Origin: Jiella flava
Lineage (GTDB): Bacteria > Pseudomonadota > Alphaproteobacteria > Rhizobiales > Rhizobiaceae
Direction of reading: 5' to 3'
DNA: 64,000 bases
NCBI RefSeq assembly: GCF_017349315.1
Contig: NZ_JAFMPP010000010.1
Span: 1 to 64,000, forward strand
A model generated the notes under the pieces. The model was not told the DNA's origin, ran no database searches, and was given only the letters and a program-made list of their open reading frames with translations. This document shows, in pieces, positions 18,719-29,921 of this stretch (the first letter of the stretch is position 1; each line of letters starts with the position of its first letter). Position numbers and translations under genes: made by a program.

Positions 18719-19321
18719 TTAGCCATGGCGGCTGAGGCTGCGGGCGGTGTCGAGGAGCTTGTCGCAGAGCGATTCGAGACTGCTGCGGGCGACATCGTCG
18801 GTCAGTCGACCATTTTCGTCAAAGCCCTCCCCCGCAAGCGGCAGCAGGCATTGCTGGGTCATCACATCCGCGCCGAGGGCCCGCAGCACCACCCGCACCG
18901 CTTCGAGGCCCCGTTGCCCGCCGAAGCGTCCGGGCGAGGCGGACGCCAGCCCGACGACGAGGCCTTTGAACGGCTGCACCGGCCGCTCGTTGACCTTGCG
19001 AACCCGGCTCGCCCAATCGATGGCGTTTTTCAGCAAGGGCGGAATGGAAGCATTGTATTCGGGCGAAACGATCAACAGCGCATCCTGCGCCGCGATCCGC
19101 TGCGCCAGCAGCTGGGCGTTCTGCGGAACGCCGCTCTCGATCTCGAAGTCGCCGTCGTAGATCGGCAGCGGATAATCGGCGAGGTCAACGCGAGTGACCA
19201 CCGCCTCGGTGACCGACAACAGCCGCATGGCCTCCGAAGCCAGACGGCGATTGTGCGAGCCAAGCCGCACCGAGCCCGGCATGATCAGAATATTGGCACT
19301 CAAGCCGCCATGTCCTCGCAC
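18719..19321 (-). CDS. NADPH-dependent FMN reductase
   Basis: Flavodoxin-fold quinone/FMN/chromate reductase-like protein of about 200 residues, cytoplasmic. The flavin-binding start ILIMPGSVRLGSHNRRL (about 11-27) and the middle motif ALLIVSPEYNASIPPLLKNAIDW (near 95-117) are diagnostic. The SPEYN loop contacts the flavin. The first ATG lies inside the 3' end of the upstream methyltransferase gene (22-base overlap), suggesting one transcript. Substrate not predictable beyond flavin or quinone reduction. Confidence 0.88.
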   Translation of the reverse strand: MRGHGGLSANILIMPGSVRLGSHNRRLASEAMRLLSVTEAVVTRVDLADYPLPIYDGDFEIESGVPQNAQLLAQRIAAQDALLIVSPEYNASIPPLLKNAIDWASRVRKVNERPVQPFKGLVVGLASASPGRFGGQRGLEAVRVVLRALGADVMTQQCLLPLAGEGFDENGRLTDDVARSSLESLCDKLLDTARSLSRHG

Positions 19322-19917
19322 CGTTCGTCGCCGTCAGCGTGGTAGATCCACACCCGCGCCGGCGGGATGTTGCTCCAAACCCGCTTCGAGGAGGAGGTCT
19401 TGAAGACGCCTGGCAGCGAGCGAACCGGCGGCGTCACCATGTAGGACAGCTGGGTGAGATTGCCGCCCGGCAAAAGTCGCTCGAAATAGCGGGCAAACAG
19501 ATCCTGGCGCCGCGCGTGCGGCATGTTGACGATCGGGATCGCGAACAGGATCGCGGCATATTTCGGCGCGCTGTCCACCGGCCCGAGGGTCTTGTCGAGG
19601 TCGAGCCCATCGCCGTGAATGACGTTGACCTTCGGAAACCGCTGCTGGAGCTTACGGGCAAAATCGCCCTCATATTCGATCGAGGTGATGCGCTCCGGCG
19701 CAACGCCATGGGTGAGCAGCGCCCGCGTCACGACGCCGAGGCCCGGCCCGAGCTCCAGGATCGGACCGTCGAGATCGGTGGTCGCATGGCTCACCATCAT
19801 CGAACAATAGGCGCGGCTCGACGGGGCGATGGCGCCCATCTTGATCGGGCTGCGAACCCAGTTCGCCAGAAAGGGAAGCCAGTCGCTCTCGGGGGTCTGT
19901 GAGGTGGTTCGGCTCAT
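19300..19917 (-). CDS. Phospholipid N-methyltransferase-like (PmtA type), copy 2
   Basis: Predicted SAM-dependent methyltransferase of the PmtA/rRNA-adenine-dimethylase-like fold, probably methylating phosphatidylethanolamine toward phosphatidylcholine at the membrane. The 205-residue protein has SAM motif I ILELGPGLGVVTRALL (53-68), an acidic ribose-binding residue in SIEYEGDFARKL, and MGAIAPSSRAYCSMM, typical of PmtA. It overlaps the stop of the upstream paralogue by four bases, so the two are coupled. Whether both act on lipids or one has diverged cannot be told from the sequence. Confidence 0.78.
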   Translation of the reverse strand: MSRTTSQTPESDWLPFLANWVRSPIKMGAIAPSSRAYCSMMVSHATTDLDGPILELGPGLGVVTRALLTHGVAPERITSIEYEGDFARKLQQRFPKVNVIHGDGLDLDKTLGPVDSAPKYAAILFAIPIVNMPHARRQDLFARYFERLLPGGNLTQLSYMVTPPVRSLPGVFKTSSSKRVWSNIPPARVWIYHADGDERCEDMAA

Positions 19918-20630
19918 GACGTCTTACTCTCGCGCTTCACTCGGTCAGCGGATGAAATCGGCGGGGCCGAGGCCTTATCGGCCGAACGGTAGACCAGCAC
20001 CCGCGCCGGCGGCAGGTTTCGCTTGACCCAGGGGCTGAGTTCCAAGGTCGCGCCGATCTTCTTGGCCTTCACCGGCTGGGTCAGGGCATAGGAAAACTGA
20101 ATGAAGGGGGCTCCCGGCCGCATCATTTCAAGCGACCGGCCAACCACCTCCTCGCGCATCTCGTCCGGCCGGGTAAACAGCGGCAAGCTCGAGACGACGG
20201 CTTCCAAGGGATCGGCGCCGATCCACTCGGGCAACGCCCGGCCGATGGCATAGGCATCGCCTTCGATGACCTCGGCGTCCGGAAAGCGCTGGCGCAAAAG
20301 CTTGCAGAAGTCGTGAGAGTATTCGATCAGGACGAGCGAACGTTCGGGCACGCCGCGCTGCAGCAGCATCTGGGTGACGACGCCGGTGCCCGGCCCCAGC
20401 TCCAAAACCCTGGAGTTTTCAGAAAACAACGCCGGATCGGGAACATAGGACGCCATCGCCCGCCCGAGGGCACGCGAAGACGGCGACACCGCCCCCGTGA
20501 TCAGCGGCCGTTGCAGCCATCCGCGAAAAAACCGCGCTTCGTCACTCACCTTGATGCGCGGACGCGCGGACGACTGCTGTCGCCGCTGCAAGACTTCCAC
20601 CACGCGTTTTCCTCCATCCTTCAGATGCAT
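19914..20630 (-). CDS. Phospholipid N-methyltransferase-like (PmtA type), copy 1
   Basis: Paralogue of the next gene, 238 residues. It keeps the PmtA-like GAVSPSSRALGRAMASY segment, SAM motif I VLELGPGTGVVTQMLL, and LVLIEYSHDFCKLLRQRFPDAEVIEGD. The basic N-terminal region (GKRVVEVLQRRQQ) could bind the membrane surface. First gene of a coupled run of three (this, its paralogue, FMN reductase). Bacterial PmtA makes phosphatidylcholine in three methylations; two enzymes could split the steps, but that is inference. Confidence 0.78.
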   Translation of the reverse strand: MHLKDGGKRVVEVLQRRQQSSARPRIKVSDEARFFRGWLQRPLITGAVSPSSRALGRAMASYVPDPALFSENSRVLELGPGTGVVTQMLLQRGVPERSLVLIEYSHDFCKLLRQRFPDAEVIEGDAYAIGRALPEWIGADPLEAVVSSLPLFTRPDEMREEVVGRSLEMMRPGAPFIQFSYALTQPVKAKKIGATLELSPWVKRNLPPARVLVYRSADKASAPPISSADRVKRESKTS

Positions 20631-22285: not shown

Positions 22286-23371
22286 TCAGACGGAAATCAA
22301 GCCGGGATGCACGGAAGCGCGGGCGGGCTTGCGCGGCTGGATCCACTTGGCGCAAAGGGGCTCGACATAGCGGGCGGAGAGCAGCGCGACAGCCACGGTC
22401 GCCATCATCGGCAACAGCCAGAAGAGATAGAAAGGGACGACACCGGTGTTCTTCAGCCAGTGGTACCACAGCCCTTCCAGAAACAGCACTTCCATCACCG
22501 GGTGGATCAGATAGATGCCGAACGCCACCCGCGTCACCGGCATCAGCGGCGCAAGACGCGCCGTGGATTGCGGATTGGCCGTTTCCGCCAAAGCGGTCAG
22601 CACAAGCGACAGGATCATCAGCGGCATCACGACATAGTACTGAAACCCGACCAGCATCGCGCCGACGGCAAGCGCCGTCAGCACAAGGCCGGGCCAGTGA
22701 CGGCGCAGATCGACGAAGCGGCGCTCGACGACGATCGACGCCGCCGCCCCGATCATGAAATCGGCAAGCGCGCGATAGGCGCCCATCGCATCGGCGGTCA
22801 TCCAGTGGCCTGACGGAAACCAGCCATAGGCTGAGGCGACTTCCAACAGCGTGATCCAGATCGCGATCCCCACCAGCAAGCCCCGCAGGCCGCCCAAGCG
22901 CAGCGTTAAAAGAATCAATGGGAACAAGGCATAAGAGAAGAATTCGGCACTGATCGACCAAGACGGATAGTTCAGCGCCAGACCGTCGGTCAGCCCCAAC
23001 CCGTGCAGCAGCAGGAGGTGATAGGGCAGCGCCTGAAAGTCATGCAGCCAGGGATAGTTTTTCGCGCCGACACTCCAGGCGGCCAATGCCACCAGCACGA
23101 AGAAACCGGTCGTCATGTAATGCAGCGGCAGAAGGCGTGCAGCGCGCCCGCGCATAAAGGCCCCATAACTGCGAAGATCCGTCACCCGCTCGCGATAGCG
23201 CGTGGTGATGAAGAAGCCCGAGATCATAAAAAACATATCGAGCAACGGCAGCAGGCGATGCAGAATGCCGGCCCCGGTCTCGACGCCGTAGGGTGCCCAA
23301 AAGACGAAGTGATAAGCCATGATGAGAATCGCCGCGACGAAGCGCCAGCAATCGAAAATTCTGAAATACAC
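22286..23371 (-). CDS. Acyltransferase 3 family membrane protein (OafA/YrhL-like)
   Basis: Integral-membrane acyltransferase of 361 residues, about ten membrane segments, probably O-acetylating a cell-surface glycan or lipid. The N-terminus has the family motif FRIFDCWRFVAAILIMAYHFVFW with the catalytic-type histidine after the first segment, and an Arg-rich cytosolic loop (YRERVTDLRSYGAFMRGRAARLLPLHY) follows. The C-terminal HPVMEVLF stretch is also usual. No SGNH domain is fused. Single gene, upstream of dnaJ on the same strand. Confidence 0.87.
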   Translation of the reverse strand: MYFRIFDCWRFVAAILIMAYHFVFWAPYGVETGAGILHRLLPLLDMFFMISGFFITTRYRERVTDLRSYGAFMRGRAARLLPLHYMTTGFFVLVALAAWSVGAKNYPWLHDFQALPYHLLLLHGLGLTDGLALNYPSWSISAEFFSYALFPLILLTLRLGGLRGLLVGIAIWITLLEVASAYGWFPSGHWMTADAMGAYRALADFMIGAAASIVVERRFVDLRRHWPGLVLTALAVGAMLVGFQYYVVMPLMILSLVLTALAETANPQSTARLAPLMPVTRVAFGIYLIHPVMEVLFLEGLWYHWLKNTGVVPFYLFWLLPMMATVAVALLSARYVEPLCAKWIQPRKPARASVHPGLISV

Positions 23372-23529
23372 GGCCGGTCTCCATCATCGGCAGAAGGACA
23401 GCGCGCCACGATATTCGCGCAGTTGACCTCGCAGCCAATTGTGCGCTCTCTCAGGGTCAGCGCAAGCACAACTCAGACACGTGGTTAAGTAAGTCACCGG
23501 CGCAAGTCACAAAAGCGCCCTCATCGCGG

Positions 23530-23793
23530 TCAGATCCGATCCAGCGGACAGGGAACGGCCTTGCGATCGCATTTGCGCCGGTAGACCCGCTCCCAGCGCG
23601 ACAATCGCCCCCGGTCCGTCAACCGTGCGACGAGATCACGGAAGAACGCCTTCTTCTTCGGCTTCTTATCGAGACGCTTGAAGCGCTTTTTCTCGGGTTT
23701 GGTCATCGAACAGCCGATACAAGTTTCGCCTTCAGCCCGAAACTTGCACACGCCAATGCAGGGCGACGGCGCTTTGGTCCATCGTTTTGCCAC
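23530..23793 (-). CDS. DUF1289 family protein (first of two)
   Basis: Short cysteine-bearing protein of 87 residues, function unknown. The diagnostic pattern PSPCIGVCKF, then CIGCSMTKPEKKRF, is present; the four cysteines could bind metal or an iron-sulfur cluster. The long basic C-terminal half ends CDRKAVPCPLD. A second gene of the same type lies at 25483-25788 with the same layout, and both flank likely iron-regulated genes. An Irr-box-like palindrome lies 145-161 bp upstream, shared with the divergent neighbour. Confidence 0.8.
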   Translation of the reverse strand: MAKRWTKAPSPCIGVCKFRAEGETCIGCSMTKPEKKRFKRLDKKPKKKAFFRDLVARLTDRGRLSRWERVYRRKCDRKAVPCPLDRI

Positions 23794-23937
23794 GCAAAAT
23801 CCTCGCAGAAGATCAGCCGGTCGAAGGCAGAGGCCGGAGATTAGCCTCCAACTTTGAGGCCGCGGCGCCGTGCCGCTTCACGCCCCCTTTGCCGATACGA
23901 GTTCGGCTGCTATGAAGACTGATCGATTTTGTCAAGT

Positions 23938-23954
23938 TTTAGAAGAGCTCTAAT
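23938..23954. promoter_or_regulatory. Irr-box-like palindrome (ICE) between divergent genes
   Basis: TTTAGAA-GAG-CTCTAAT matches 12 of 14 fixed bases of the iron control element I recall for the rhizobial iron regulator Irr (TTTAGAA-nnn-TTCTAAA). It lies between the DUF1289 gene and the unknown gene at 24011. Confidence 0.55.
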
Positions 23955-24010
23955 CTGATGCCCGTCAACGCTTGAGTTTCGGCGTTTGGAGCGGGCTGCC
24001 GACGGACGAC

Positions 24011-24490
24011 ATGATGAGCGCAGCATTTGCCTTTGCGGAACCAGAGACCCCCGGCGCCGTGATTCTGCCTTTCAGACGCGGCGATCGGGAGATCGCTTGT
24101 CCCACTGTGACGAAGCGTGTCCCGAATCTGTCGGAAGACGATCGCAATCGGCTGAACCGGCTGCGGTGGTTTGCGCTGAAGAGCCATCTCGCCCCCCGGC
24201 GGGACGTGGAGCGGGCCTGCCTCGTCCTGTCGGCCCAAGCCGAAACGAGCATCGAATATCTGGCGACCTTTTTCTTTCGGGCACTCGACGAATATGCGAC
24301 GCGCGAACTCGCCATTTATCGGCCTGGCGCGCGGCATCCGTCCGAGGACGAAATCTGGCTTCTGCGGCTGATGGCGTCCTGGCAGAGCGATGAGCGGACC
24401 GCGGGATCCGCGTTGATTGCCTGGCGTGTCCGTCTCGAAGGCCGTCGCTGGCTGCGCTTTCTTGCCGAAACGCTCGCCCATCGGCTTTGA
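24011..24490 (+). CDS. Conserved hypothetical protein behind an Irr-box-like site
   Basis: I do not recognise the family with certainty. The protein (159 residues) is soluble, with a variable N-terminus, a central LSEDDRNRLNRLRWFALKSHL stretch and Leu/Arg-rich helices to the end (GRRWLRFLAETLAHRL). It has few cysteines and no signal or membrane segment, so it may be an alpha-helical regulator or adaptor. The start is uncertain: ATG at 24011 or 24014 is preferred over a TTG at 23972, which would sit only 17 bases after the palindrome and has no ribosome binding site. Coding character is supported by length, high GC at third positions and clear placement between regulated genes. Confidence 0.65.
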   Translation: MMSAAFAFAEPETPGAVILPFRRGDREIACPTVTKRVPNLSEDDRNRLNRLRWFALKSHLAPRRDVERACLVLSAQAETSIEYLATFFFRALDEYATRELAIYRPGARHPSEDEIWLLRLMASWQSDERTAGSALIAWRVRLEGRRWLRFLAETLAHRL

Positions 24491-24780
24491 GTGAAACCGG
24501 GGGCGCCAAGTACAAGATCCGCTTGGCCGCTCCCTGCTTTACCGACCTTGGCCTGACAACACGACACCTTACCGGCGATTCGCGCTCGCTTCGCGCGATC
24601 GCGATGTCCTGGCAATATCCGCTTCGCGCGTCCCTCCCCTGCCGCTGATGTCCAATACTCCACGGCCCGCTTGTCGACGTCATCGCGTCTCTGTGCGGAG
24701 GGAAACAGACCGCGGAGCCGCAGGTTCTCGAGCGAAAAATCAGACCAGCGACAAAAATCGCGGACCCGACTTCCATCTTG
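24491..24780. other. Intergenic stretch before the dps operator
   Basis: No gene or RNA is supported. The minus-strand frames here overlap each other and lack domains. The dps promoter and Irr-box-like operator follow directly. Confidence 0.45.
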
Positions 24781-24797
24781 TTTAGAATAGGTCTAAA
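24781..24797 (+). promoter_or_regulatory. Irr-box-like operator upstream of dps
   Basis: TTTAGA-ATAGG-TCTAAA is a perfect 6-bp inverted repeat and matches 13 of 14 fixed bases of the recalled Irr box TTTAGAA-nnn-TTCTAAA. It ends 61 bases before the dps start codon. Irr would be expected to repress an iron-storage gene when iron is low. Confidence 0.72.
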
Positions 24798-24858
24798 GAC
24801 AGAGCCCAAGACGCTCTTTGGCGTTCATGTAACGGAATTTTCTGCAAAGGAGACAGCC

Positions 24859-25341
24859 ATGGCTCTCGTGGCCGCCAAGATGGAACCCACCGCCAAGGAA
24901 GAAATCGTCGAGGGTCTGACCCAGGCTCTGGCCGAGACGGCGGTCGAGACGATGAAAGCCCAGAACTTCCACTGGAACGTCACGGGCATGGCCTTCGGCC
25001 CGCTGCACGAGTTGTTCCAGAAGATCTACGAGGATCACTTCGAGGGTCAGGACTTCCTCGCCGAGCGCATCAAGGCGATGGACGCCCATGCCGAGGGCCG
25101 GCTCAGCGTCTTCCTCAAGCTGAGCAAGATCACCGAGCATGACGGCAAGACCGACGCCAAGACCATGATCGAAGTGCTTCTGAAGGATCAGGAGACCCTC
25201 TCTTCGACGCTGTCCGCTTTGGCTCAGGTCGCAGACCAGCATGGCGACTGGGCGACCAACGACATGGCGACAGCTCGCATCGAAACCCACGACAAGTTCG
25301 CCTGGATGCTGCGCGCCCACCTGCGCAACACGGCCGCCTAA
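24859..25341 (+). CDS. dps: DNA starvation/stationary-phase protection protein Dps
   Basis: Dodecameric mini-ferritin that oxidises and stores iron using peroxide and protects DNA; cytoplasm. The 160-residue protein has the family ferroxidase residues with the right spacing: H38 (in NFHWNVTG), H50, D65 and E69 (in FEGQDFLAERI). The ATG at 24859 follows AAAGGAG; an upstream ATG at 24778 would put the operator inside the gene. Transcribed alone, with an Irr-box-like operator before it and a strong terminator after it. Confidence 0.95.
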   Translation: MALVAAKMEPTAKEEIVEGLTQALAETAVETMKAQNFHWNVTGMAFGPLHELFQKIYEDHFEGQDFLAERIKAMDAHAEGRLSVFLKLSKITEHDGKTDAKTMIEVLLKDQETLSSTLSALAQVADQHGDWATNDMATARIETHDKFAWMLRAHLRNTAA

Positions 25342-25372
25342 ACCGAGCGCTGCTCAATCGAGCCCGAATAAT

Positions 25373-25400
25373 GGCCCGTCGATATCTCGGCGGGCCTTTT
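25373..25400 (+). terminator. Rho-independent terminator of dps
   Basis: GGCCCG (25373-25378) pairs with CGGGCC (25391-25396), extended by partial TCGA/TCGG pairing, and is followed directly by TTTT. It lies 31 bases after the dps stop. Confidence 0.75.
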
Positions 25401-25482
25401 GCATGGTCGCATCGCCTCAACGCCGGACGCGGCGCAGCCGGCGATCGGCCATCCCCATCACCAATCCGATCACACCGGCTGC

Positions 25483-25788
25483 CTATTCCTCGGCGATCTC
25501 CACCGGGCACGGCACGCCTTCGCGTTTGCATTTGTGCTGATAGGTATAGGCCCAGAACGCCGGATTGCGGCCGCTATCTTCGAGCCGCGCGATCAACGCC
25601 CCGATAAAGTCGCGCTTGGCAGCCGCACCGCCGTGATGAGGAAAGGCATCCTTTTCCGCCTTGGTCATCGAGCAGCCGATACAGCGCCCCTGACGCTTGT
25701 ATTTGCACACATCAATGCATGGCGATGGCGCGGTTTCCCAAACCGAATCGTCGAGTGAAACAGGCGCCGCGTCGGCAAAGCTGCTCAT
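25483..25788 (-). CDS. DUF1289 family protein (second of two)
   Basis: Paralogue-like relative of the gene at 23530, 101 residues, with the same pattern: PSPCIDVCKYKRQG, CIGCSMTKAEKDAF, and a C-terminal CKREGVPCPVE. The six cysteines make metal or Fe-S binding possible. The start overlaps the rirA stop by four bases, so the two are translationally coupled: an unknown cysteine protein made with the iron regulator. Function remains unknown. Confidence 0.82.
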   Translation of the reverse strand: MSSFADAAPVSLDDSVWETAPSPCIDVCKYKRQGRCIGCSMTKAEKDAFPHHGGAAAKRDFIGALIARLEDSGRNPAFWAYTYQHKCKREGVPCPVEIAEE

Positions 25789-26246
25789 GACAGCGCGGCG
25801 CGCTCCGCGACCGGAGCAATCCCGAGAGTCTGCGAAATGAAGGGGCGATTTTCAACCAGGTCGGCGATCGAAAACTGGCCGAGGGTCGTCAGGAACGCTT
25901 CGAGAGCCTGCCGGAGCGCTGCATTCAGCTCGCAATGGACCACCAACGGACAATCGGTTGTTCCACCGTCGAAACACTCCGCCATGGCGAAGCTCTCTTC
26001 CATCAACTCGACCACCTCGCGCAGGCTGATGCTGCCGGCCTCGCGGCCGAGCCGAATGCCACCATTGCGCCCACGCACCGTTTCAACCAGTCCCGAGGCG
26101 ACAAGCGGCTGCAGAATTTTGAACATAAAGGGTTCGGGCGCCGCGTAGGACCGTGCCACATCGCCGAGCTTGCTAAGCCGACCCTCATTCGTCGCGAGAT
26201 ACATGAGGATCCGGATGGCGTAATTCGTCTGGCGCGTCAGGCGCAT
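25785..26246 (-). CDS. rirA: Rrf2-family iron-responsive regulator RirA
   Basis: Iron-sulfur transcription factor that represses iron-uptake genes when iron is plentiful in Rhizobiales. The 153-residue protein starts MRLTRQTNYAIRILMYLAT, with the winged helix-turn-helix and ETVRGRNGGIRLGR wing. Cluster-ligand cysteines C91, C99 and C105 (AMAECF, TTDCP, VVHCEL) are spaced as in RirA. The match to the Rhizobium protein I remember runs through most of the length, which distinguishes it from NsrR or IscR. The ATG at 26246 is chosen over 26300 because it gives the standard RirA N-terminus. It is coupled to the downstream DUF1289 gene. Confidence 0.9.
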   Translation of the reverse strand: MRLTRQTNYAIRILMYLATNEGRLSKLGDVARSYAAPEPFMFKILQPLVASGLVETVRGRNGGIRLGREAGSISLREVVELMEESFAMAECFDGGTTDCPLVVHCELNAALRQALEAFLTTLGQFSIADLVENRPFISQTLGIAPVAERAALS

Positions 26247-26505
26247 GTCGCAAATGACCTTTTCGTTGAAACGGCGTCGCCGTCTCTCGTCCCTTTCCAA
26301 ATAAGCTTCTTTAGAGCAATTAAAAGGTGTGGTGCAAATGCAAAAGTGCCGCGCCGCGCCGATCGCTCCCTGCCGGCAGGCCGACGTCGCGTAACATTAA
26401 ACGCCCGATCTTGGCATCGCCGCACCGCCGAGAAATACCACAGGTTGCGCTCCGGCGCGATTTAAACCTGATCGCAATAAGGAATAGGCTCAGTCGTAGC
26501 GCGAT

Positions 26506-26796
26506 TCAGTTATTGAACAGCGCCTCTCCCTGCTCGTCGATCACCTGCTCGGCCTTGCGCAGCGCAAAGGCGGCAGCGTCGTCCTTGGAAGCAAACAGAT
26601 CGGCGCGGATCATGCGATGAACCTTGGTCTCGCCGCCGATCTCCTTTTCGATCAGCGCAGCCAGACGAAACTGACCGCCTTCGGGCATCGGCGTCGCCTT
26701 GATGGCGAAACCGGCATAATCGCGGCTGTCGACCACCGCCGGCTCGCCAGGAGTCGCGCCGCCTGCACCGCCAAACAGCTTCTTTAAAAAGGACAT
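26506..26796 (-). CDS. HlyU-family protein
   Basis: Small cytosolic protein of 96 residues, similar to HlyU, a regulator of hemolysin in Vibrio; the role in alphaproteobacteria is unclear. It begins MSFLKKLFGG followed by a Gly/Ala stretch, then VDSRDYAGFAIKATPMPEGGQFRL, HRMIRADLFASKDDAA and a C-terminal helix (KAEQVIDEQGEALFNN). The ATG at 26796 opens the conserved N-terminus; the frame runs upstream another 91 codons, but that part is low-complexity and antisense to a repeat. Single gene. Confidence 0.75.
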   Translation of the reverse strand: MSFLKKLFGGAGGATPGEPAVVDSRDYAGFAIKATPMPEGGQFRLAALIEKEIGGETKVHRMIRADLFASKDDAAAFALRKAEQVIDEQGEALFNN

Positions 26797-26827
26797 GCAT
26801 TCCACCTCATCTCGCCAGCCCGGCGCA

Positions 26828-26887
26828 TTGCATCCGATCGGACGCAGAAAGGACGCGATAACTTTCTGATTCTGCGAATCGTGCTGT
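26828..26887 (+). repeat. Partial RIME-like repeat copy
   Basis: CATCCGATCGGACGCAGAAAGGACGCG matches the left palindrome of the family, then the sequence decays through the GAATCGTGCTGTAGG part. It lies between the HlyU-family and Uma2 genes. Confidence 0.6.
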
Positions 26888-26926
26888 AGGTAGCCCGGCA
26901 GATCACGCTTCGCCAGGGATATGCGC

Positions 26927-27532
26927 TCAGAGATCGTCGGAAAGCTTGAGAGCGAGATCGGGAACGAGCGCCGGCGTGACCGCGACCTCGGTCTTGAAGT
27001 CGGTGATTTGCCGATATCCGGCCGGCGTCGGCTCACGCAACATCCGAGTTTCGAGCGCCACGGCGTCAATCACCCACAATTCGCGAATGCCAAAGCCGGC
27101 ATAGATAGACGCTTTGCGCCCCTGGTCATAGGCAAGGCTCGAATCGCCAAGTTCCACCGCCAGCAGGCAAGTCTCGCCGTTCAACCCTTCGAGGCCGACG
27201 AATTTTTCAGAGAGAACGAAGTCTGGCTCCAAAAACGTATCGACCGACAGGCGGAAAGTCGTCTCCGGGGTAAACGCGATGCCCGATGGAAGCTGACGCG
27301 CCAGTTCCATGTTGACGAACGTCTTCAAGCGCTCGTGGCGGATGCCTTTCGAGGACATCGGCACCAACTCCCCGCCGATCAGCTCGACGTGCTCGTGCTC
27401 GTCCATGTTTCTGGTCCGCACCATCGCGTCGATCTCGGCGACGGTGAAAGCGCGGCGCACCATCCCTTCCGCCGCCTGCGTGGTACGAGGGCGGCGGATA
27501 GGGAGGTCGAAATGATCGTCGAGCGCGTTCAT
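26927..27532 (-). CDS. Uma2 family (DUF820) putative endonuclease
   Basis: Restriction-endonuclease-like fold protein of 201 residues; biological role not established. The family pattern is present: FTVAEIDAMV, HVELIGGELVPMSSKGIRHE, the catalytic-type FLEPDFVLSE and CLLAVELGDSSLAYDQGRKASIYAGFGIRELWVID stretch with Asp, Glu and Lys positions as in PD-(D/E)XK nucleases. Uma2 genes occur in many copies in cyanobacteria and scattered in others. Located just downstream of rpoD on the same strand, with a 31-bp gap. Confidence 0.85.
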   Translation of the reverse strand: MNALDDHFDLPIRRPRTTQAAEGMVRRAFTVAEIDAMVRTRNMDEHEHVELIGGELVPMSSKGIRHERLKTFVNMELARQLPSGIAFTPETTFRLSVDTFLEPDFVLSEKFVGLEGLNGETCLLAVELGDSSLAYDQGRKASIYAGFGIRELWVIDAVALETRMLREPTPAGYRQITDFKTEVAVTPALVPDLALKLSDDL

Positions 27533-27563
27533 CGTGCCATGACAGCAGAGCCGCGCCCGAGGA

Positions 27564-29570
27564 TCAGCTGTCGAGGAAGCTGCGCAGCTTGCGGGAGCGC
27601 GAGGGGTGCTTCAGCTTGCGCAGCGCCTTGGCTTCGATCTGGCGGATGCGCTCGCGGGTGACCGAGAACTGCTGGCCGACCTCCTCAAGGGTGTGATCGG
27701 TGTTCATGCCGATGCCGAAACGCATGCGCAGCACGCGCTCTTCGCGCGGCGTGAGCGAAGCCAGAACGCGGGTCGTCGTCTCGCGCAGATTGCCCTGGAT
27801 GGCTGCATCGATCGGCAGGACCGCATTCTTGTCCTCGATGAAGTCGCCAAGATGCGAATCCTCCTCGTCGCCCACCGGGGTTTCGAGGGAAATCGGCTCC
27901 TTGGCGATCTTCAGAACCTTGCGGACCTTTTCGAGCGGCATCGCCAGCTTTTCGGCCAGCTCTTCCGGCGTCGGCTCGCGTCCGATCTCGTGCAGCATCT
28001 GGCGCGAGGTCCGCACGATCTTGTTGATCGTCTCGATCATATGGACCGGGATGCGGATGGTGCGCGCCTGATCGGCGATCGAGCGGGTGATCGCCTGCCG
28101 GATCCACCACGTGGCATAGGTCGAGAACTTGTAGCCGCGGCGATACTCGAACTTGTCCACCGCCTTCATCAGGCCGATATTGCCCTCCTGGATGAGATCC
28201 AGGAACTGCAGACCGCGGTTGGTGTATTTCTTGGCGATCGAGATGACGAGGCGCAGATTGGCCTCGACCATCTCTTTCTTCGCCTGGCGGGCCTCGGCCT
28301 CGCCCTTTTTCACCATCTGGACGATGCGCCGGAATTCGGTGATCTCGAGGCCGGTCTCGGTCGCAAGATTCTGGATTTCCTGGCGCAGCGACTTGATGCC
28401 GTCTTTCTCGTTCTGAACGAACTTCAGCCAGCCTTTGCCCGACAGATTGGCGACATGCCGCGTCCAGTTCGGATCGAGTTCCGAGCCCTGATATTCGCGC
28501 AGAAACTCCTCGCGCTTTACCCCATGCGATTCGGCGAGGCGCAAGAGCCGGCCCTCATTGCCGACCAGCCGCTTGTTGATGTCGTAGAGCTGGGCGACCA
28601 GGGCGTCGATCCGGTTCTGGTTGAGGGACAGGCTCTTCACCGCAGCGACGAGATCTTCCTTCAGCTTCTTGTAGGACCGTTCCTGGCTCGGCGAGAGGGT
28701 GCCCTGCGCGGCCAAACGGTTTTCCACCTGCTGGTCCTGCAGCTTGCGCAGCCGCCGATAGCCATCGGCGATCTGATCGAAGATCTCCATCACCTGCGGC
28801 TTGATCTCGGCTTCCATCGCCGCGAGCGACAGATTGTTCTCGAGATCGTCGTCATCATCGTCGTCTTCGCCGGAAGGGGCTTCGCCGACCATCCGATCGC
28901 CGGACGCAGCCGTGCCGTCGTTGCCAAGGCCATTCGCGCCATTCGCGCCTTCTGCCGGCGGCGGCGCCGACGGAGTCTTGGCCTCAGGTCCCGCATAGGT
29001 CGCCTCGAGATCGACGATCTCGCGCAACATGATGTTGCCTTCGTTCAGCTCATCGCGCCAGATGATGATTGCCTGGAACGTCAGGGGGCTCTCGCAGAGC
29101 CCGGCGATCATCGTCTCGCGGCCAGCCTCGATGCGCTTGGCGATGGCAATCTCGCCCTCGCGCGACAACAGCTCCACCGAGCCCATCTCGCGAAGATACA
29201 TGCGAACGGGGTCGTCCGTGCGATCGCCCGATTCGCGTTTCTGCGTCGTCGCGACCTGGGTCGCGCCGGTCTCGGCGACTTCGGTCGATTCGGATTCGTT
29301 CGAGTCGTCCTGCTCGCCCTCTTCGTCGTCCTCGACGACGTTGATCCCCATGTCGTTGAGCATGGCCATCATGTCTTCGACTTGCTCCGACGTCACGTCG
29401 TCGGAGGACAGCATCGAGTTCAGTTTGTCCATGGTGACGAAGCCGCGCTTTTTGGCGGCCTTGATCATCTTTTTGACGGCGTCATCCGACAGATCGAGCA
29501 ACGGCCCATCGGAGGCGTTGTCATTACGCTCCTCGGTGGGCGCTTCGCTTTCCTTGGCCTTTGTCGCCAT
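27564..29570 (-). CDS. rpoD: RNA polymerase primary sigma factor RpoD
   Basis: Housekeeping sigma-70 factor, 668 residues. Region 1.1 is acidic, with a long non-conserved insert that includes a run of Asp residues ([12 protein letters not shown] near 235-246) typical of alphaproteobacteria. Region 2 has [21 protein letters not shown], region 3 starts [15 protein letters not shown], and region 4 has [13 protein letters not shown] and [20 protein letters not shown]. All core-binding and promoter-recognition motifs are intact. The ATG at 29570 is chosen because GGAG lies 9-10 bases before it; 29579 is the alternative. dnaG follows upstream on the same strand. Confidence 0.97.
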
Positions 29571-29921
29571 ACGCTTCATTCTCCAATTCGCATGCCCCTC
29601 GGAGCGCGCCCTTGAATTTCAAGGACTGGGCCATGCTGCGACCCGTAAAGCCACGCTATGCGGCAAATGCCGTTAACGGCGGCTTAACCATAAATCGACC
29701 GCGCCGAAGCGGAACACATCGATCTTGTTACCTGACGGCGCGATAAAGAAGGCGCAGTCTCGCAATCTTTCAAGCTTTGGGCTCGGGTCGAACGCCCTCT
29801 CGACCGATCAGATATGTTCTGTCAAGCGCCACCGCACAATAAGAGGCGACAATTCATCCCGTTTTTTTAGCGAGATAAGCCCAGACTGCAACATGTCGAC
29901 CAGATTTTCGACTGCACGCCT
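29571..29921. other. rpoD promoter region
   Basis: No gene is supported. It contains a perfect TTAA-N7-TTAA site at 29673-29687 and a CCTTGAA-T-TTCAAGG palindrome at 29610-29624. A dnaG terminator was not evident. Confidence 0.5.
29673..29689 (+). promoter_or_regulatory. Candidate CtrA-binding site upstream of rpoD
   Basis: TTAA-CGGCGGC-TTAACC fits the CtrA consensus TTAA-N7-TTAA exactly. CtrA is the cell-cycle regulator of alphaproteobacteria. It lies about 100 bases upstream of the rpoD start. One motif alone is weak evidence. Confidence 0.4.

Follow-up and report, generated by a model that had tools for sequence, protein, structure and literature searches.

Here, we describe a gene neighbourhood at positions 23530-26246 of a 64-kb stretch of the Jiella flava genome (4.16 Mb in 49 contigs; the whole stretch is referred to as the window) that, on comparative sequence grounds, is likely an iron-storage module repressed by Irr. 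The predicted module is centred on a divergent Dps-type ferritin, with two proteins of the family DUF1289 (DUF1289a and DUF1289b) and the product of an unnamed gene, orf24011, as putative accessory proteins. Directly seen are the genes and the selective constraint on them, the conservation of both neighbourhood and palindromes, and an IrrA protein encoded in the same genome (NF045678, 220.4 bits, cut-off 150).

A preliminary description of this region had reported a RirA-type regulator coupled to a cysteine-rich DUF1289 gene, with a second DUF1289 gene, an unknown gene and dps close by, and all of these genes are present (Table 1). The product of rirA scores above the RirA cut-off and has cysteines at positions 91, 99 and 105 only, as expected from the three conserved cysteines given for RirA in the abstract of PMC5863699. 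DUF1289b, the gene coupled to it, starts within the rirA stop codon (ATGA overlap). Both DUF1289 proteins exceed the Pfam cut-off and have six cysteines, at 12/16/25/28 and 75/82 in DUF1289a and at 24/28/36/39 and 87/94 in DUF1289b; a third copy, on another contig of the genome, is the best-scoring of the three. The ferritin is Dps-like and not a Dps equivalog, as it reaches 58.7 of the 114 bits set by NCBIfam NF006975. Searches of Pfam, NCBIfam and PHROGs gave no family for orf24011, whose closest named relatives occur in Jiella species, Fulvimarina sp. NAT173 and Aurantimonas sp. 22II-16-19i (protein identity 68-73%). Ratios of nonsynonymous to synonymous substitution (dN/dS) of about 0.13 and 0.15 in two congener pairs place orf24011 under purifying selection. 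The ratios of DUF1289a and DUF1289b fall in the range of about 0.12-0.15 (one congener pair each), and dN of 0.067 and 0.054 against dS of 0.48 and 0.45 leads us to reject that these two genes are spurious open reading frames.

The preliminary description had also noted two palindromes resembling the Irr operator. We searched with the pattern TTTAGAANNNTTCTAAA, which we take to be the Irr-box consensus and which is backed by the site at mbfA described below. Both palindromes were recovered, at 24781-24797 and 23938-23954, and they are the sole sites with up to three mismatches in the window; shuffled versions of the window held 0.26 sites on average, and two sites were reached in two of 100 shuffles. 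Genome-wide, the pattern was not enriched at this threshold (36 sites vs. 46 for the reversed control), and the case for Irr boxes therefore rests on conservation. With up to two mismatches, the window genome has eight sites, two at the module, one at mbfA and five beside other genes. The mbfA site, a two-mismatch palindrome 3 bp outside the open frame of this rubrerythrin plus VIT1 gene (G000:C10:63771-63787, L009), served as internal positive control. A further site, with one mismatch (G000:C23:113367-113383, L005), precedes an SBP_bac_6 solute-binding gene by about 180 bp; this gene possibly encodes a ferric-iron ATP-binding cassette (ABC) binding protein.

Table 1. Features of the predicted iron-storage module and its flanks, in window coordinates
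Feature	Position	Strand	Description
DUF1289a	23530..23793	-	87 amino acids, GTG start; Pfam PF06945, 41.7 bits (cut-off 27)
Irr-box-like palindrome TTTAGAAGAGCTCTAAT	23938..23954		2 mismatches; divergent DUF1289a/orf24011 promoter region
orf24011	24011..24490	+	159 amino acids, mostly alpha-helical; unnamed family
Irr-box-like palindrome TTTAGAATAGGTCTAAA	24781..24797		1 mismatch of 14; 61 bp upstream of dps
dps	24859..25341	+	160 amino acids; divergent Dps-type ferritin; Pfam Ferritin, 82.1 bits (cut-off 24.5)
Terminator-like hairpin	25373..25396	+	3' of dps; 10-pair stem followed by T run; weak
DUF1289b	25483..25788	-	101 amino acids; Pfam PF06945, 34.1 bits (cut-off 27)
rirA	25785..26246	-	153 amino acids, Rrf2 family; NCBIfam NF008886, 207.7 bits (cut-off 193)
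Conserved element TTTAGAGCAATTAAAAG	26310..26326		Upstream of rirA; degenerate Irr-box-like, 4 mismatches

A profile search of genome contigs with the orf24011 alignment gave 45 named loci, which come from Jiella, Aurantimonas, Aureimonas, Fulvimarina, Consotaella, Mangrovicella, Afifella and metagenome-assembled genomes. Within 6 kb of orf24011, dps is found in 39 of them, DUF1289 in 40, both in 39 and rirA in four. The gap between orf24011 and dps contains an Irr-like site with up to two mismatches in 38 of 39 loci, compared with 0.04 expected from shuffles of the same gaps. The divergent DUF1289a/orf24011 promoter has a site in 14 of 17 loci at up to two mismatches and in all 17 at up to three (0.01 and 0.04 expected from shuffled promoters). 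Given this conservation in gaps and divergent promoters, we reject that the two palindromes arose by chance. The preliminary description had named a lack of conservation in relatives as grounds for refutation; neighbourhood and sites alike are found to be conserved. In the window genome taken by itself the motif would be weak evidence, while the comparison across genomes makes the sequence evidence strong. Palindromes close to TTTAGAANNNTTCTAAA that lie upstream of iron genes and are retained in relatives can be regarded as putative Irr operators. Irr sites were reportedly predicted in many Alphaproteobacteria by Rodionov et al. 2006 (PLoS Comput Biol). As that work may already list some of the sites, we claim no novelty for the operator part.

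Genes may also stay together for reasons other than shared function. A dps operator placed at, or overlapping, the 3' end of orf24011 could hold orf24011 and DUF1289 next to dps by mere inertia of the neighbourhood, and the box does begin in the last bases of orf24011 in several genera (offset -4 in L107, L110, L115, L125 and L126). In the window genus, however, the box stands 187-399 bases past orf24011 (290 in the window), yet the genes remain together. The position of DUF1289 also varies between genera, some having it upstream of orf24011 and others downstream of dps. Moreover, the order orf-dps-DUF1289 survives in two genomes of another alphaproteobacterial order (G645 and G723), at an orf identity of 30-31% and a Dps identity of 57%, with a palindrome in the orf-dps gap that is perfect in one (L140) and has one mismatch in the other (L141). 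A genome of a further family (G490, L153) has the same gene order. With the gene order kept at such divergence, we consider inertia a highly improbable explanation, and an iron-storage module remains the preferred one.

The two halves of the neighbourhood are not always joined. Both the DUF1289a-orf24011-dps block and the rirA-DUF1289b block are present in all ten genus genomes (nine congeners and the window), but they lie apart in all nine congeners. The single five-gene island of the preliminary description thus holds for the window and for Aurantimonas manganoxydans (L108) and A. coralicida (L113), which have the full order, and not for the congeners. The notion that the joined island is a peculiarity of the window was accordingly rejected in part, and the joined arrangement is probably the older state. 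Upstream of rirA, the 17-base element TTTAGAGCAATTAAAAG is identical in eight of nine genus genomes examined and one base off in the ninth; the count excludes G001 (L036), in which rirA is in two pieces in different frames, reflecting either a broken gene or a frameshift in the sequence record. Some other genera have boxes with one or two mismatches ahead of rirA (e.g., L063, L065, L073, L092 and L093).

DUF1289b follows immediately behind rirA in all ten genus genomes, and the pairing recurs in the g22 genomes G030, G155 and G223 and in some Aurantimonas. Together with the ATGA overlap, this association would suit a protein that serves iron sensing instead of storage, being made with RirA and giving it, or removing from it, the Fe-S cluster or iron, with the place by dps secondary. 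Elsewhere, however, DUF1289 follows dps without rirA, as is apparent from the four rirA neighbours among the 45 loci as opposed to 39 loci with DUF1289 and dps. In the other-order genomes, where dps, orf and DUF1289 stand together, the 9 kb retrieved yielded no RirA homologue. A role of DUF1289b in sensing is therefore quite unlikely, in our estimate, compared with one in storage.

The window genome has two matches to PF00210, both of Dps type, namely the module protein and a canonical Dps encoded elsewhere (192.4 bits, cut-off 114). The module protein shares the Pfam Ferritin domain with known Dps proteins but differs from them in its score below the equivalog cut-off and in the glutamine of its LHELFQ motif, which is present in 44 of 44 homologues listed (L081 and L138 being one locus counted twice). 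This position, which we take to be a ferroxidase-ligand position, is occupied by aspartate in the canonical Dps of the genome and by glutamate in the nearest solved sequence, 8ff9, a 'probable DNA-binding stress protein' that is presumably the Dps of Pseudomonas aeruginosa. Glutamine is not unique to the module Dps, since the solved chain 5lbh also has it. A stand-alone Bfd was not found in the window genome, where each of the four PF04324 matches is part of an open frame of at least 846 amino acids. Of 32 genomes that have the module in whole or in part, 31 lack a stand-alone Bfd (open frame of up to 170 amino acids) and G490 has one; in two of the 32, G030 and G250, the stretches retrieved around the DUF1289 genes showed no adjacent dps. 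All seven genomes in which the orf24011 family adjoins bacterioferritin (Bfr) have a stand-alone Bfd, but these were chosen for bfr beside orf. The contrast is weak, covering only these 32 and seven genomes. Absence of Bfr is no rule of the module either, since a Bfr-like gene, L225, is present in the Afifella-type genome G263 (114.6 bits, slightly under the cut-off).

The DUF1289 proteins of the module form a subfamily. Like DUF1289/COG3313 proteins such as E. coli YdhL, they score above the PF06945 cut-off and have four core cysteines, but they differ in a C-terminal extension with a conserved tryptophan and tyrosine and, in most, a KC-x6-CP motif. The extension is absent from the two short DUF1289 copies aligned (L088 and L089); the third copy of the window genome stood outside the alignment. 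AlphaFold2 modelled DUF1289b with a mean predicted local distance difference test score (pLDDT) of 79, and the model had no Foldseek match in the PDB at E <= 0.001 (best E 2.4); the DUF1289 sequence profile had none in the PDB at E <= 1. For orf24011, the predicted structure consists of six helices (mean pLDDT 82), again with no Foldseek match in the PDB at E <= 0.001 (best E 0.4), and its sequence profile gave one PDB match, at E 0.14, which is not credible.

The family of orf24011 extends well beyond loci with dps. The profile A4, made from distant family members that came for the most part from genomes in the sample it was run on, matched 100 of 385 sampled alphaproteobacterial genomes (E <= 1e-5), sometimes as tandem pairs, and none of the family members scanned had a Pfam model over its cut-off. 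We examined 77 hand-picked loci of this wider family (60 of the 130 A4 hits, taken roughly best score first, plus 17 fetched earlier). The orf was seen in 76, and one had dps and DUF1289 as neighbours. Seven loci from six families had a Bfr neighbour (L146, L147, L173, L175, L202, L210 and L215), where a rough estimate, not a computed control, would give about 0.3 by chance (two bfr per 4.5-Mb genome, 7.5-kb stretch). All of these except L202 had a Bfd-like gene as well. L147, from which the Bfr and Bfd queries were taken, has the orf, the Bfd-like gene and bfr in a row; the bfr product is over its NCBIfam cut-off (246.6 bits) and the Bfd-like product is under that of the Bfd model (31.3 bits, cut-off 75). 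A HugZ-like neighbour was present in two of the 77 loci, one of which (L142) was the source of the HugZ query.

It could be argued that DUF1289 and orf24011 serve general defence against peroxide or stress, having an iron-responsive operator in common with dps but no contact with iron themselves. In line with this, passages of PMC8228696 place E. coli ydhL among the genes obtained from plasmid-library screens for resistance to H2O2 and HOCl, an observation that equally suits the iron-storage module. The neighbours of the wider orf family, Bfr and HugZ-like, nevertheless point to iron, and the boxes are Irr-like, so that we consider a pure stress-defence function unlikely. For the preferred iron-storage module, known Irr biology offers a model. 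According to passages of PMC7762939, storage systems and rirA are repressed by Irr when iron is low, and mbfA is under Irr control; Irr boxes at mbfA, ccpA and rirA are given in parts of PMC3413700 and PMC10374146. By analogy, when heme or iron is low, Irr would occupy the palindromes and keep dps, orf24011, DUF1289a and, together with rirA, DUF1289b at a low level. When iron is plentiful, Irr would be released, Dps and its helpers would be made and surplus iron stored, and RirA would be made and shut down iron uptake. The module resembles the Irr/ICE-controlled iron genes of Rhizobiales (mbfA, bfr and rirA) in its Irr-box-like palindromes near iron-storage genes and rirA, the IrrA protein and the site at mbfA, but differs in that its ferritin is a Dps and that two uncharacterised families belong to the set.

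Concerning the biochemical role of the accessory proteins, we infer a function in handling stored iron. According to the parts of the sources consulted, the fate of Dps iron is unclear (PMC7762939), Bfd has a role in the release of iron from Bfr (PMC7411545, PMC10536872) and ferredoxins are discussed together with Dps (PMC10536872). The role that we prefer, as a possibility and no more, is that of small cysteine-metal or Fe-S partners: the DUF1289 proteins may hand iron or electrons on to the Dps mineral or take them from it, much like Bfd with bacterioferritin. The arrangement has features of a bfd-bfr operon, as a ferritin gene stands beside a small cysteine protein and the orf24011 family adjoins bfd and bfr in other Alphaproteobacteria; it differs from one in that the ferritin is Dps and not Bfr and that DUF1289 has no Bfd-family match. 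The cysteine spacing of DUF1289 also differs from the CXC/CXXC pattern that we take to be that of Bfd, and we treat the family as possibly Bfd-like, not as Bfd. With similar reserve, orf24011 would be a ferritin accessory protein, because the wider family adjoins both dps and bfr. That the DUF1289 subfamily is a dedicated partner of a Dps for the transfer of iron or electrons, and so a Dps counterpart of Bfd, and that orf24011 founds a new family of ferritin accessories, which would serve Dps or bacterioferritin depending on the alphaproteobacterium, is a proposal that we put forward with considerable doubt.

Several observations weigh against an Irr-controlled module with Bfd-like helpers. 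Neither DUF1289 protein matched Bfd (Fer2_BFD, PF04324), and Pfam at E 0.1 gave only PF06945. A purely Bfd-like release role is disfavoured because Irr repression at low iron would switch off the mobilising partner when it is most needed. Where DUF1289a is convergent to dps, none of 18 loci had an Irr-like box at up to three mismatches in the 250 bp upstream, a count that leaves out five loci with a DUF1289b call only. Boxes at up to two mismatches are missing from L100, the one exception among the orf24011-dps gaps, and from L153, and five of the eight such sites in the window genome are not at recognised iron-storage genes. Six loci have no dps nearby; L118 is interrupted by a contig end, and four of the other five (L106, L111, L114, L119 and L121) are also without DUF1289. 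Finally, the DUF1289 proteins of L140 and L141 do not have the two C-terminal cysteines. The earlier suggestion that DUF1289 proteins and orf24011 belong to iron homeostasis is, on balance, supported by comparative genomics for this DUF1289 subfamily, and we do not extend it to DUF1289 at large.

Other features of the region are less telling. Three terminator-like sites were seen, including the hairpin behind dps, compared with 3.5 expected by chance, and a scan of 23300-26700 found no sigma-70 promoter. Between rirA and rpoD (26506-29579) lie genes of the HlyU family and Uma2, an order kept by several congeners. At 19300-20630, two adjacent open reading frames with a 4-base overlap resemble similar methyltransferases, as judged by reading the sequence.

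Among the matches listed for literature searches on dps with Irr and on ydhL with iron, the titles and abstract openings did not describe this module. Conserved small uncharacterised proteins beside an Irr-box-marked dps would be concrete candidates for partners of Dps iron storage. The module may likewise offer a physiological lead for DUF1289, to which E. coli YdhL belongs, and for the unnamed orf24011 family, which roughly one in four of the alphaproteobacterial genomes sampled encode.

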